Below are positions 20,950-26,653 of a stretch of DNA of 36,432 bases, in pieces; the stretch's first letter is position 1, and the number at the start of each line of letters is the position of its first letter. The position numbers and the translations under genes are program-made. The stretch comes from Candidatus Thorarchaeota archaeon (GTDB lineage: Archaea > Asgardarchaeota > Thorarchaeia > Thorarchaeales > Thorarchaeaceae): assembly GCA_004524595.1 (NCBI GenBank), contig SDOA01000030.1, positions 1 to 36,432 on the forward strand, given 5' to 3'. The notes under the pieces are model-generated. The model made no database searches. It was not told the DNA's origin and saw only the letters and a program-made list of their open reading frames with translations.

Positions 20950-22996
20950 ATGCTTGATATTTCGAAAGCAATGAAGATCAAGCTTCCATCTGAGTTGCCC
21001 CCCAATCCCGTGTTTGACCCTAAAATACGTAGAGCTCCAGATCGAGGCTTTAGTCTTAATGAGAAAGAAACCGTAGTTGCAGTCAAGAATGCACTCCGGT
21101 ATGTTCCTAAGATTCTTCACGAAAAACTTGCACCTGAATTCTTGGAGGAACTTCTTTCAAGAGGTCGCATCTATGGATACCGTTATCGTCCACAGGGACC
21201 TATCAAAGCCAAGCCCGTGTCTGAGTATAAAGGGATACTAGAGGCTCGGGCGATTCAACTAATGATTGACAATAATCTTGACTATGATGTCGCACTGTAT
21301 CCCTATGAATTGGTCACTTACGGAGTTACGTACTAGATTTCCTAGTCGAACCGTTTAAAGTGGCCAAGTGTGCCAGAATTGGATGCAATATCAGCTTACC
21401 AAGAAATATCTAGAAAACATGACTGAAGAACAGACTCTTGTTGTGAGTTCTGGGCATCCTGTAGGTCTCTTCCCATCAAAGAGAGATGCCCCACGAGTTC
21501 TGTCAACAAATGGCCTGATGGTGGGAATGTTCGATACTCCTGAGGGATTTCATCATGCCACACAGATAGGAGTGGCCAATTATGCTCAAATGACTGCAGG
21601 CGGTTGGATGTACATCGGACCACAAGGGATAGTACATGGGACATACATTACTCTATTAAATGCAGGCAGACAGTATCTTGGACTACCTGATGATGAGGAT
21701 CTCAAAGGCAAGGTCTTCCTAACATCTGGTCTCGGAGGAATGAGTGGCGCCCAAGCAAAGGCAATTGAGATAGCTGGAGGTATTGGTCTCATTGCTGAAG
21801 TTGATAAAAGCAGGATTGATACACGACACGAACAGGGTTGGTTGAGTAGATTTTCAGCAGATCTTGATGGGATCTTTGAGTGGGTAGATGAATACAGAGA
21901 AACGAAAGAGCCTGTGTCAATTGGTTATTATGGAAACATAGTGGATCTATGGGAATATGTTCTTGATAATAAAATCCCTATTGAGCTTGCCTCTGATCAG
22001 ACCTCATGTCATGATGTCTACGGTGGTGGTTATACTCCACAAGGTGTGACCTTCGAGGAAGGTAGAGACCTGCTCAAGAATGATAGGAATCGTTTCAGAG
22101 AACTTGTAGACGCATCCCTGAGTCGCCAGTTCGAACTCATTGATGCAATGACAAAACGTGGTACTTTCTTCTGGGACTATGGCAATTCCTTCATGAAAGC
22201 TGTATTCGATGCTGGTGCGACACGTATTGCAAAGAATGGAAAAGATACTTCTGAAGGATTCATCTTTCCCTCGTATGTTGAGGATATCATGGGTCCTATC
22301 TGTTTTGATTATGGATATGGCCCATTCCGATGGGTGTGTCTAAGCGGGAAACACGAGGACCTCATTGAGACCGATAAGACTGCAATGTATAAAATTGATC
22401 CTAAACGAAGAGGACAGGACCGTGATAATTACCATTGGATTCAAGATGCTGAAAAGAATAATCTTGTTGTTGGTTCACAAGCAAGAATCCTCTATGCTGA
22501 TGCACAGGGTCGTGTGAACATTGCATTAGCATTTAATGAACTTGTTCGAAATGGAAAAGTTGGTCCAATAATGCTTGGTAGAGACCATCATGATACAGCG
22601 GGGACTGATTCGCCTTTCCGAGAAACCGCGAACATCCATGATGGTAGCAATGTGATGAGTGACATGGCTCATCAATGTTGGTCTGGAAATACAGCTCGTG
22701 GGATGACTATGTGTGTCTTGTCTAATGGTGGAGGTGTCGGAACTGGGAAAGCAATCAATGGTGGATTTGGTCTAGTACTTGATGGATCCAAAAGAGTAGA
22801 TGCAATCATCAAGTCTGCATTAGACTGGGACGTCATGGGTGGTGTCGCGAGACGTGCCTGGGCAAGAAATGATCATGCAATTGAAACGGCTGTAGAATGG
22901 AATAGACGACTAGGAGATAAAGGTCAGATATCAATTCCCTATATTCCGGAAGAGGCCCTTGTTGAGCGTCTGGTTATGAAAAGGTTTGAAGACTAG
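20950..22996 (+). CDS. hutU: Urocanate hydratase, interrupted by a 31-nt intron
   Basis: Urocanase converts urocanate to 4-imidazolone-5-propionate, the second step of histidine breakdown, using tightly bound NAD+. The gene is in two frames: exon 1 20950-21325 and exon 2 21357-22996. Joined they encode 671 residues, the size of the long urocanases that have a ~90-residue N-terminal extension ('ELPPNPVFDPKIRRAPDRGF', 'LRYVPKILHEKLAPEFLEEL'). Exon 1 ends within 'LYPYELVTYGE' and exon 2 resumes with 'SGQVCQNWMQYQLTKKYL', so the interruption is inside the conserved NAD-binding Y-G-x-x-G segment. Exon 2 has 'QMTAGGWMYIGPQGIVHGT', 'LTSGLGGMSGAQ' and 'SDQTSCHD'. No mutations elsewhere suggest decay. 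Start: ATG 20950 fits a GGTGA site; ATG 20908 overlaps the TATA box. The stop shares CTAG with the convergent endonuclease V gene. Confidence 0.92.
21310..21367 (+). promoter_or_regulatory. Bulge-helix-bulge splicing motif in hutU pre-mRNA
   Basis: Exon helix: 21310-21319 pairs with 21358-21367, ten base pairs including one G-U. A 3-nt bulge (TTA, 21355-21357) is on the 3' strand. The central helix is 4 bp, ACGG (21320-21323) with CCGT (21351-21354). A 3-nt bulge (AGT, 21324-21326) is on the 5' strand. The intron helix contains 21329-21330 with 21347-21348 and 21332-21336 with 21342-21346, capped by a 5-nt loop. This is the canonical substrate architecture of the archaeal tRNA splicing endonuclease. 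Confidence 0.85.
21326..21356 (+). other. 31-nt archaeal BHB intron in hutU
   Basis: Cutting each 3-nt bulge after its second base removes 21326-21356. The remaining exons join to read Y-G-E-S-G-Q-V-C-Q-N-W across the junction, in frame on both sides. The intron carries in-frame TAG codons and its length (31) is not a multiple of three, so the unspliced message yields only a ~128-residue fragment. The splice-site choice is inferred from the structure and frame; no RNA evidence is available here. Confidence 0.85.
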
Positions 22997-23682
22997 TCCA
23001 TCTTGGTTTTGAGCAATCTTTTAGACAAAATATGTGCTCTCCGTAAGACCTCAGGATGGCCATCTGTAGAAGAATCTGTGACCACCTTTACTGCTGTTTC
23101 TAAAGAGACCCTATGTCCAATTGAAACATAGATTGGTTTTCTTCCATTGAGCCACAATGCTCTACCAAGCACTTCATCCGCATGAATGATTTCCGCACAA
23201 TTTCCAGAACGAGGTCCTAGATTTCCGAGCAACAATTTCTTCGCAACACCAATTGTCTGAACATTCATCTTAATTCCTAGATATGATGCAAGTCCGAATC
23301 TTCTTGGATGGAGTATTCCATTCCCATCTACTAGTACTATTCCATTAGTCTTGAGATTTTGAACAAGATCAATTAAAATCGGGCCTTCTCGCAGCTGGAA
23401 AAATCCCGGAATGTATTCTGATTCTATCTCTCTGACAACGGTTTCTGAGGTTACTATTTTCTTCAGGCTATTATCAAAAACTATTGCAACTCCTGCAGCC
23501 CGATTTTTGGAATAAGCTACATCAAGACCAATGACTATTGAGCTTGAATAAGAAGGATCATTATATCGTTTAACATACTTTGCAAATCTGTCTTGATCCT
23601 TTGTTAGGCTTGTCAGATTCAATATAATGCCACTCTCAGTCAACCTAATCATATTCACAATGTCCCTTATTGATACTTGCAT
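22993..23682 (-). CDS. nfi: Endonuclease V
   Basis: A 229-residue endonuclease V, which cuts the second phosphodiester 3' of deoxyinosine in DNA, and in some lineages inosine in RNA. The catalytic acids are visible: D54 ('IGLDVAYS'), E99 ('FFQLREGP') and D119 ('VLVDGNGILHPRR'). The strand-separating wedge motif is Y90-I-P ('SEYIPGF'). 'RRFGLASYLGI' and 'TIGVAKKLL' are family signatures. Start ATG 23682; the start of hutH is only 57 bases away on the other strand. The stop lies within the CTAG shared with hutU. Confidence 0.95.
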   Translation of the reverse strand: MQVSIRDIVNMIRLTESGIILNLTSLTKDQDRFAKYVKRYNDPSYSSSIVIGLDVAYSKNRAAGVAIVFDNSLKKIVTSETVVREIESEYIPGFFQLREGPILIDLVQNLKTNGIVLVDGNGILHPRRFGLASYLGIKMNVQTIGVAKKLLLGNLGPRSGNCAEIIHADEVLGRALWLNGRKPIYVSIGHRVSLETAVKVVTDSSTDGHPEVLRRAHILSKRLLKTKMD

Positions 23683-23739
23683 GCTGTTCGATAACTACTA
23701 AAGAGAGCGGTCGTGAAACATTACTCAATGGTGGGCAAA

Positions 23740-25272
23740 ATGACAGTTGCGATTGATGGTGAGAATTTAACAATTAGCGATGTTGTTCAAGTAGCTCGTT
23801 ACAACAAGAAGGTAGAGCTGGCTGCAGCAGCTATTGAAAAAATACAGAAGAGTCGTGATGTTATTGAACGTGCCATTAAAGATGGTCGCACTGTATATGG
23901 TGTAAATACTGGCTTTGGTGAGTTGTCATCTGTATCAATAGGCTCTAAAGATCTTACAAAACTTCAGGTGAACCTTATTCGTAGCCATAGTGCTGGAGTC
24001 GGCGAACCCTTTTCTATTGATGCTGTTCGAGGTATGATGCTTCTTCGAGCAAATGCATTAGCAAAGGGTTACTCTGGAGTTCGACTTGAAGTAATTCAGA
24101 CTCTTATTGAATTACTTAATTCAGGAATCACTCCTATCGTACCACAGCAAGGCTCTGTTGGTTCTAGTGGAGACCTTGCTCCGCTTGCACATATGGCACT
24201 TGTTATGATTGGAGAAGGTGAAGTCTTCCACAATGGAAAGCGAATGGATGGGTTAGAAGCACTGAAGAAAGCTGGTATCAAACCCCTTGAACTGCAAGCA
24301 AAAGAAGGAGTCGCTCTGATAAATGGAACACAACCAATGACCTCGGTAGGAGCGCTAACCGTTCATGACTCATTTTGTACTATCAAGGATGCTATTATTG
24401 CAGCCTCCCTAACGCTAGAAGCGTTACGCGGCACCCGGGCAGCTCTAAACGAGAGAATTCATGCGATACGACCCCATGAAGGACAAAATGATGTAGCGCG
24501 AGCAATGAAGCTTATCTTAGATGACAGTGAGATTAATCAGTCACATGCCAATTGCGGAAAGGTACAGGATGCCTATTCACTTCGTTGTTCTCCTCAAGTA
24601 CTTGGAGCTACATTGGATACAATACGTTATGTTGAGAGTGTGATTGAAACCGAACTCAATTCCGCAACAGATAATCCTCTTGTCTTTTCAGAAGATGGTT
24701 CGGTTCTGTCTGGTGGGAATTTTCATGGTCAACCTATCGCTCTTGCAATGGATTTCCTTGGTATTGCTCTTTCTGAACTTGCGAACATCTCTGAAAGAAG
24801 AATAAATCGACTTGTTAATCCTCATTTGAGTGGTCTGCCTGCATTCTTGACTACTGAGGGTGGCCTTGAATCAGGGATGATGATTGCTCAATATACTGCA
24901 GCAGCTCTTGTTTCTGAAAATAAAATCCTTGCTCATCCGGCCAGCGTAGACTCGATACCCACAAGTGCAGATCAAGAAGATCATGTGAGTATGGGTACAA
25001 TCGCAGCAAGGAAAGCAGCTTCTATACTAGAGAATGTCAAAAATGTGATTGCAATTGAATACATGTGTGCAGCTCAGGCTATTGATTTATTAGCCCCATT
25101 GAAACCCTCTAAGGCACTAGACGCAGTAAAAGGCTGTATTCGTAAAGATGTAGATAAGCTGGAAGATGATCGGCCTCTAAGTCCTGATATTTGTAAGATT
25201 CGCGAGCTGATGAAAAATGGATTACTCCTTGCCGCGATAGAATCAATTGTAGGGGTAATTCTCGAATCTTGA
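23740..25272 (+). CDS. hutH: Histidine ammonia-lyase
   Basis: A 510-residue enzyme that removes ammonia from histidine to give urocanate. Conserved elements are 'VYGVNTGFG' (catalytic Tyr), 'RSHSAGVGEP', 'LINGTQ', 'QDAYSLRCSPQV', 'NFHGQPIALAMD' and 'QEDHVSMG'. The MIO prosthetic-group triad is Ser-Ser-Gly (142-144, in 'GSVGSSGDLAPLAH') rather than the usual Ala-Ser-Gly. The frame is open from GTG 23713, but GGTGGG at 23729-23734 and the usual family beginning favour ATG 23740. It is convergent with hutI, with only two bases between stops. Confidence 0.95.
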   Translation: MTVAIDGENLTISDVVQVARYNKKVELAAAAIEKIQKSRDVIERAIKDGRTVYGVNTGFGELSSVSIGSKDLTKLQVNLIRSHSAGVGEPFSIDAVRGMMLLRANALAKGYSGVRLEVIQTLIELLNSGITPIVPQQGSVGSSGDLAPLAHMALVMIGEGEVFHNGKRMDGLEALKKAGIKPLELQAKEGVALINGTQPMTSVGALTVHDSFCTIKDAIIAASLTLEALRGTRAALNERIHAIRPHEGQNDVARAMKLILDDSEINQSHANCGKVQDAYSLRCSPQVLGATLDTIRYVESVIETELNSATDNPLVFSEDGSVLSGGNFHGQPIALAMDFLGIALSELANISERRINRLVNPHLSGLPAFLTTEGGLESGMMIAQYTAAALVSENKILAHPASVDSIPTSADQEDHVSMGTIAARKAASILENVKNVIAIEYMCAAQAIDLLAPLKPSKALDAVKGCIRKDVDKLEDDRPLSPDICKIRELMKNGLLLAAIESIVGVILES

Positions 25273-25274
25273 GA

Positions 25275-26540
25275 CTATGGTCCTAGTTTAGTGTGGATAA
25301 ACTGCCCTGTTGAAATTACAGTATGAACAAGGTTAGCTCCAAAACGCCATGACAGATACTCAGGATTGGGACAATCAAGAATGAGAATATCTGCTCTTTT
25401 GCCAACCTCGATGCTTCCCAATATTTTACTTCTGTTGATTGCATGAGCCGCATTGATTGTGACTGCCGATAATACCTCTCGAGGATACATCTTCATCTTA
25501 TAACATGCTAGTGCTATAGTGAAAAAGAGTGACTCATTCGCACAATTAGGGTTGAAGTCTGTAGCTAGTGCTACTGGGAGCTCCATATCAATCATTTTTC
25601 GTGCGTTTGCGTAATTGGTATTGAGGCTGAAGGCTGTAGCTGGAAGAAGTGTAGCAATTGTGCCTGCTTTTCTCATTGCTTCAAGCCCATCATCAGAAGC
25701 CATGAGTAGATGGTCTGCTGAGACCGCTCCTAATTCAGCTGCAAGCTCAGCTCCCCCGAGTTGCACAATTTCATCTGCATGAACCTTCAACTTCATTCCA
25801 TTCATCTTTGCGGCTCGCAAAATTGCTCGTGATTGTTCAATATCAAAAACACCCTTTTCACAAAAGACATCACAAAACTCCGCTAATTTGCTATTTGCAA
25901 CAGCAGGTATCATCTCATTAATTATTAGATCTACATAATCTTCAGGTCTTCCTTCAAATTCGGGAGGTATTGCATGAGCTCCAAGGAATGTAGAAATGAG
26001 TTCAACAGGTATCTTTTGGCGGAGCTCTTCAATTGCACCAAGCATCTTGAGTTCACTCTCAGTACTCAAGCCGTATCCGCTCTTTGCTTCGATAGTAGTG
26101 GTTCCATTACTGAGCATGCTTTCAGCGTATGAAAAAGCATTACTACATAATTCCTCTTTTGAAGCTGCCCTTGTTGACTTCAGTGTATTGAGAATCCCTC
26201 CACCCTCTTTGAGAATTTCAAGGTATGTTTTCCCTTTTAACTTCAATGCAAAATCTCTCTCGCGGGACCCGCTAAACGCTAGATGTGTATGGCTATCAAT
26301 AAAGCCTGGAGTCGCTAGCATCCCTGGAAACTCTATTGTAGGTAAATCAGGCGACTCTGTTACCTGTGATATCACCTCATCCGTGGTTCCAACTGCAACG
26401 ATTGTTCCTCCCTCAATAGCAATTGCACCATTTTCTATAATCGAGAGTTCCTTTAGATTCTCTCCTTTCTTCGGCTTATCCGAGTATCCACTAAGTGTAG
26501 CTAGTTGTCCAATATTTGTTAAGAGGATGTCAGGTTTCAT
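25275..26540 (-). CDS. hutI: Imidazolonepropionase
   Basis: A 421-residue amidohydrolase that opens the imidazolone ring to N-formimino-L-glutamate, the third step of histidine degradation. Metal ligands are in 'DSHTHLAFSG' (H-x-H) and 'KVHADE' plus the later 'ATDFNPNCANE' aspartate. 'SGYGLSTESELKMLGAI' and 'GAHAIPPEF' are family-specific. The frame is open from ATG 26570; ATG 26540 is the likelier start because it begins at the usual N-terminus. No formimidoylglutamase or formiminotransferase lies in the window. Confidence 0.95.
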   Translation of the reverse strand: MKPDILLTNIGQLATLSGYSDKPKKGENLKELSIIENGAIAIEGGTIVAVGTTDEVISQVTESPDLPTIEFPGMLATPGFIDSHTHLAFSGSRERDFALKLKGKTYLEILKEGGGILNTLKSTRAASKEELCSNAFSYAESMLSNGTTTIEAKSGYGLSTESELKMLGAIEELRQKIPVELISTFLGAHAIPPEFEGRPEDYVDLIINEMIPAVANSKLAEFCDVFCEKGVFDIEQSRAILRAAKMNGMKLKVHADEIVQLGGAELAAELGAVSADHLLMASDDGLEAMRKAGTIATLLPATAFSLNTNYANARKMIDMELPVALATDFNPNCANESLFFTIALACYKMKMYPREVLSAVTINAAHAINRSKILGSIEVGKRADILILDCPNPEYLSWRFGANLVHTVISTGQFIHTKLGP

Positions 26541-26653
26541 TTCAATCACAATAAAATAAGAGCATGGCAATACATTTACATTACGCTATTTGTAGCGGCA
26601 TTAATTAGGCAGATAGTTTGAAACAAATCAAGTCAAAAACGAGGCATTAGACA

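Follow-up and report, generated by a model that had tools for sequence, protein, structure and literature searches.

How an intact urocanase could be made from an interrupted gene is the question raised by hutU in a Candidatus Thorarchaeota archaeon (contig SDOA01000030.1). We analysed a stretch of 36,432 nucleotides, hereafter the window, in which hutU spans approximately 20950 to 22996 on the plus strand. The upstream part of its frame is closed by a TAG at 21334-21336, and the gene is open again, in a different frame, from 21359.

Short introns in archaeal protein genes have a precedent. PMC2738675 describes the cbf5 pre-mRNA introns of Sulfolobales and Desulfurococcales as 16-44 bp long, bulge-helix-bulge (BHB)-like and cut by EndA, reports that their splicing was shown by experiment, and reads their distribution as one gain followed by two losses. 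It also mentions introns predicted by others in further archaeal protein genes and states that, as of 2009, no archaeal pre-mRNA splicing had been confirmed outside cbf5.

A 31-nt insert interrupts the urocanase frame

Excision of 21326-21356 (31 nt), which joins 21325 to 21357, yields a single frame of 671 aa from the ATG at 20950, and its product reads ...YPYELVTYGESGQVCQNWMQY... across the junction. The codon split by the insert is rebuilt from G21325 and the AA that follows the excised stretch, giving the segment Y-G-E-S-G-Q-V-C-Q-N-W. An earlier note on this DNA had placed the frame break at about 21330, proposed that removal of 31 nt would restore the frame, and predicted that cutting after the second base of each bulge would rebuild Y-G-E-x-G-Q-V-C-Q-N-W; we reproduced all of this. 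The identity of the gene is given by a match to the urocanase 6uek (E 7.1e-182) and to ten further urocanase sequences. The best full-length homologues are 87% identical, and the named ones among them belong to Thorarchaeota, in keeping with an Asgard origin of the DNA. One homologue, the urocanase P0022, has 863 aa and exceeds the others by about 190 residues; it matches 79% of the query at 65% identity. Next to hutU lie three genes that we recognised by eye and take to be endonuclease V-like, hutH-like and hutI-like (Table 1).

Table 1. Features of the hutU locus, in coordinates of the window
Feature	Position	Strand	Basis
hutU 5' exon	20950..21325	+	ATG 20950 start inferred from relatives
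Exon helix, 5' arm, 10 bp (predicted)	21310..21319	+	pairs with 21358-21367; unconstrained fold
Central 4-bp helix, 5' arm ACGG (predicted)	21320..21323	+	pairs with 21351-21354
5' bulge AG/U (predicted)	21324..21326	+	predicted cut after 21325; position rule and frame; 2-nt bulge in the minimum-energy fold
Putative BHB-type intron, 31 nt	21326..21356	+	frame repair; rank 1 in the protein-blind scan; same-site inserts in G001, G002, G046 and G033
Intron hairpin, loop AUUUC at 21337-21341 (predicted)	21329..21348	+	predicted fold
Central helix, 3' arm CCGU (predicted)	21351..21354	+	predicted fold
3' bulge UU/A, 3 nt (predicted)	21355..21357	+	predicted cut after 21356; unconstrained fold
Exon helix, 3' arm (predicted)	21358..21367	+	predicted fold
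hutU 3' exon	21357..22996	+	open frame, junction repair
Endonuclease V-like gene (presumed)	22993-23682	-	name by recognition; convergent, between hutU and hutH
hutH-like gene (presumed)	23713..25272	+	open frame; name by recognition
hutI-like gene (presumed)	25275..26570	-	open frame; name by recognition

The insert is predicted to fold as a bulge-helix-bulge

The unconstrained fold of the insert region has an energy of -22.3 kcal/mol (z -4.17), and none of 200 shuffled sequences was equally stable. Most of the BHB anatomy proposed in the earlier note, namely the 10-bp exon helix, the 4-bp helix, the 3-nt 3' bulge and the hairpin, appears in this fold; its 3-nt 5' bulge does not, as U21326-A21350 and U21327-A21349 are paired in the minimum-energy structure and leave a 5' bulge of 2 nt. 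The textbook arrangement, with a 3-nt 5' bulge AGU at 21324-21326, comes at -21.2 kcal/mol, which is 1.1 kcal/mol worse. In that arrangement the window has a complete central helix (4/4 pairs) between two 3-nt bulges. We also scanned 166 nt of the window for BHB-like combinations of cut position and length without using the protein, and the frame-restoring combination ranked first of 747. The claim that structure and protein independently point to the same cut holds. An Rfam scan of the window gave no family at gathering score, and the insert, at 31 nt, shows no ribozyme core of a group I or group II intron.

The most likely explanation by far is that the insert is real and very probably a functional BHB intron: the archaeal tRNA-splicing endonuclease would cut the hutU mRNA after the second base of each bulge, and an RNA ligase, for which RtcB is the probable candidate, would then seal the exons into a message for intact urocanase. 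The frame break, its exact repair, the complementary BHB segments and the similarly built inserts of nine further Asgard genomes can be read from the DNA; cleavage and ligation in the cell we infer.

Inserts of the same build occur at two sites in relatives

A scan of a species collection returned 44 hutU loci, among which L019 (Thorarchaeota SMTZ1-45) and L013 (CSMAG_1051) carry an insert at the same place as the window, and L020 (YT5_051) has a 30-nt, stop-bearing insert at a second site. With the wider surveys, inserts of 29-32 nt were found in ten hutU genes, those of the window and nine other Asgard genomes, five at site 1 (Y-G|E) and five at site 2 (Y-G-Q). Those at site 1 are 31 nt (window, L019, L079) or 32 nt long (L013 and L078, which have the identical insert), and those at site 2 are 30 nt (L075, L076, L077, L199) or 29 nt (L082). 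A hutU match was obtained in 42 of the 47 class genomes: eight carry an insert (G001, G002, G046 and G033 at site 1; G034, G035, G039 and G041 at site 2), 30 are uninterrupted at both sites, in three (G021, G037, G038) the hutU contig starts at or after site 2, and one, G013, has a distant homologue of 37% identity. Across the phylum, where 143 of 227 genomes have a match, G166 adds a 30-nt insert at site 2. Outside the class, four odd-looking genes were fetched as DNA and the rest were judged from the match table; the odd-looking frames of G083, G138 and G137 are interrupted at neither site. Most relatives have hutU without an insert, and relatives either lack the 31 nt or carry an insert at the same site, as the earlier note had predicted. 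Three points go beyond that note: close relatives differ in whether they carry the insert, hutU has a second insertion site, and the BHB is imperfect in some carriers.

Three hutU contigs, L029 (MEHG01000079.1), L031 (JAHQWZ010000056.1) and G038:C276, start at or just after site 2, possibly because assemblies break in a conserved stretch common to strains with and without the intron. In the genome of L073 (G047), positions 64-141 and 440-643 of L017 hold a decayed second hutU 5' region just upstream of the intact gene, with 144 nt that are 85% identical to intact hutU; G047 is an intron-free tree neighbour of the carriers G002 and G046.

The window and its relatives come mostly from metagenome assemblies, so we considered an assembly or sequencing artefact. 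This we regard as the least probable reading of all, because different inserts of the same build stand at the same points in separate deposits (for instance LRSL01000109, DAOVDG010000001, JAEOTX010000078) and because many protein clusters end at these points. A query with the 5' hutU fragment matched 1179 proteins; among the best 120 of them, about 35 stop at site 1 and bear a non-canonical tail, a number favoured by the query itself ending at site 1, and 33 end at site 2, which is free of this bias, while 8 have canonical tails and 43 end elsewhere. The script counted 36 at site 1, from which we removed the doubtful P0201, and the tails of the site-2 fragments P0195 and P0152 are very short. 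Some of the truncated clusters are likely to be the ten genes themselves.

The broken frame, together with an unbroken gene in many relatives, could also be taken to mean that hutU is a decaying pseudogene disabled by the insert. We consider this highly improbable. None of the nine carrier genomes has a second hutU match (E 1e-50) beside the interrupted copy, both exons are conserved, and the ten genes are broken at two points only, in every case by a removable insert. The proteins of the window and its insert-free relative L045 are 87% identical, yet the two genes use different codons for 275 of 531 shared residues. Judged by its DNA, the interrupted copy is under selection.

As an extension of the intron reading, removal could be regulated, so that the intron serves as an on/off switch of histidine breakdown and the unspliced message yields a dead-end short peptide. 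The inserts do stop translation early (the open frame of the window closes at the fourth codon of the insert region), and this is a metabolic gene with two intron sites. As 30 of the 42 matching class genomes read through both sites, such a switch seems unlikely to us.

One cut rule serves all ten genes

Cutting after the second bulge base restores a Glu codon (GAR) at site 1 or a Gln codon (CAR) at site 2 in 10/10 genes. Non-carriers have Glu at site 1 in 51/54 and Gln at site 2 in 54/54. The two split codons align to residues 54 and 131 of 1uwk, which we take to be the Pseudomonas putida urocanase and in which these residues presumably adjoin the NAD site.

The cut rule bears directly on ribosomal bypassing, in which a ribosome would hop over 29-32 nt of unspliced message with the aid of a hairpin. 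T4 gene 60 reportedly combines a short coding gap, a hairpin and an early stop in this way, and hutU has the same three elements; in addition, GGA flanks the gap on either side in L019. However, the insert splits a codon, and matched take-off and landing codons occur only in L019. Whole-codon reading downstream of the gap yields the conserved residue in only 3/10 genes, that is, Glu in two of five site-1 genes (L019, L079) and Gln in one of five site-2 genes (L076), and it meets a stop at the landing point in the window and L199. Bypassing is thus very improbable, on a par with a pseudogene.

The structural support for BHB splicing varies among the genes. In protein-blind scans the frame-restoring cut ranked first in the window, L079, L075, L076 and L077, second in L019 and L082 and fourth in L199; L013 and L078 could not be scored because their central helix has two mismatches (2/4 pairs). 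The helix has 4/4 pairs in the five genes ranked first and 3/4 in L019, L199 and L082, and at site 2 just three exon pairs adjoin it. Free folding does not produce the BHB for L019 and L199 and gives it for L082 only with 32-nt flanks; L013 keeps the hairpin and the exon helix, and in L075, L076 and L077 the central helix runs on into the 3' bulge. Counted from the intron start, the hairpin loop lies at 11 nt in site-1 introns and at 10 nt in site-2 introns; a 5-nt loop stands at that position in eight of the nine rows examined by script, and L019 has it, with the same AUUUC, only in an alternative hairpin.

At site 2, the four 30-nt introns show changes on both sides in 6/16 pairs, a covariation score reached by 0/500 shuffles and a pair count reached by 12/500. 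The changed pairs include C-G to U-A in the central helix, for which the matching exon change, TAC/TAT, is silent. The three rows at site 1 have two such pairs, which is not above shuffles (68/500). Likewise, a model built from four site-2 introns recovered the unseen fifth, that of G034, at E 4.4e-9, whereas the site-1 model gave only E 0.18 on the unseen G002 and G046.

The exons next to the cut also differ between carriers and non-carriers. Carriers have the same synonymous codons ahead of the cut: GTC ACT TAC GGA in 5/5 site-1 carriers and CTC GGC GTC in 5/5 site-2 carriers, each in 0/54 others. The upstream flanks of carriers differ from each other at 0-4 of 6-9 codons, as compared with 52-64% gene-wide, and their downstream flanks show no standout likeness. 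Co-conversion, in which the intron brought its flank along, would account for this likeness, and a constraint on the codons from exon-helix pairing explains it equally well. The pairing energy of the exon flanks separates carriers from non-carriers at site 1 (16 nt, p 0.0026; 32 nt, p 0.0067; 4 vs 54) and, at site 2, with 32 nt (p 0.0018; 5 vs 52) and not with 16 nt (p 0.65; 5 vs 50), in tests that are not independent because the carriers are related.

Genes for the presumed splicing enzymes occur in the class

Endonuclease family PF01974 was found in 47/47 class genomes, with two genes in 41 of them and a single one in the carrier G035, and RtcB in 44/47, including all eight class carriers. 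One endonuclease subunit of G001 has a G-P-G-x-D-H segment, the His of which is Ala in the solved chain 3ajv_B, and the second subunit has no His at that position. From these sequences we read the two genes as a catalytic and a structural subunit of the hetero-oligomeric type, which PMC2738675 links to unusual cleavage motifs. The organism of the window presumably has the same endonuclease and RtcB. A tRNA search with introns disallowed found one gene in 40 loci; with introns of 10-120 nt allowed, nine candidate tRNA genes with predicted introns appeared in the Thorarchaeal genome G036 and none in the other 28 sequences.

Carriers are scattered over the gene tree

In a hutU gene tree of 59 rows, carriers pair with insert-free genes (window with L045, L079 with L048, L062 with L057, L076 with L069; the second member lacks the insert), and each site requires four changes or more. 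A single clade of the five site-1 carriers is rejected (p-AU 3.9e-7), as is one of the four Thorarchaeal site-2 carriers (p-AU 5.7e-41), and a single gain would have to be followed by 12 losses for site 1 and by 10 for site 2. The inserts have the look of a single small family, which our searches met only in hutU and which was gained, transferred or lost several times, with intron gain and transfer of the whole gene not separated from each other.

It is conceivable, though we hold it to be doubtful, that an enzyme-less family of 29-32-nt BHB introns invades hutU repeatedly: tRNA-type splicing would run in reverse and return excised introns to TTAYGGA targets in two codons of the cofactor site. 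Four observations count for this reading: TTAYGGA is the sequence at the cut of both sites; the end of the intron is complementary to the target (CCGU with ACGG, and CCAU with AUGG in L076); a loop AUUUC occurs at both sites; and the carriers are scattered, with distant ones sharing the upstream flank. If re-insertion is true, one Asgard gene records the gain and loss of mRNA introns as they happen.

Relation to known systems

Similar to the cbf5 introns of PMC2738675, the hutU inserts are short, lie in a protein gene, are BHB-like and are present in some species and absent from others. They differ in that hutU encodes a metabolic enzyme, belongs to Asgard archaea and has two sites; a single carrier clade is rejected for each site, whereas cbf5 is explained by one gain, and splicing is deduced for hutU and experimental for cbf5. 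With the BHB introns of archaeal tRNA and rRNA they share the predicted 4-bp central helix between 3-nt bulges and the predicted cut after the second bulge base, but they stand in a protein-coding frame with no tRNA or rRNA around. Our literature search, which lay mostly outside subscription journals, returned no paper on hutU introns or Asgard mRNA introns and no second gene reported later. Within the literature searched, the mechanism is known, being of the crenarchaeal cbf5 type, and the gene, the phylum and the evolutionary pattern are new.

With a second gene, two sites and carriers beside non-carriers, the gain, loss and use of archaeal mRNA introns become testable by comparison. Furthermore, several carriers have public protein records cut short at the intron, so that a histidine pathway that works may be annotated as broken, and the hutU introns are a warning for annotators. 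The Asgard phylum is held to be closest to eukaryotes. The hutU introns nevertheless say nothing on the origin of spliceosomal introns, which work differently.

Search for similar inserts in other genes

In order to find other interrupted genes, we compared open frames from six contigs and 23 short loci by tblastn; the contigs amount to 2.75 Mb, 0.81 Mb of it covered by homologues, and the search covers genes that have a homologue there. In the resulting 845 gene clusters, no gene other than hutU shows a short frame-breaking insert that many genomes support. Screening the six contigs for inserts of 10-200 nt that break a frame gave hutU and a 59-nt candidate in G036. We rejected the candidate: its upstream frame ends in two stops and a GTG opens a new frame, an arrangement that two neighbouring genes share. 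The remaining insertions with in-frame stops, each supported by one to five alignments, resembled gene junctions or antisense frames.

The pattern TTACGGAN{15,32}CCGTNNAA matched 7 times in 12 genomes, as compared with 19 times when read backwards, and three of the seven matches are known hutU introns (G033, G035, G039). Under strict filters, with R1 scoring at most 123 candidates per genome, models R1 and R2 found over the 47 class genomes (E up to 0.5) the hutU of carriers and one place at chance level, in G012 (E 0.185). Finally, at about position 897547 of G036:C1, a stop takes the place of the Gln that relatives show in the LSGGQ region of an ABC-transporter-like frame, which is either a nonsense mutation or a sequence error.
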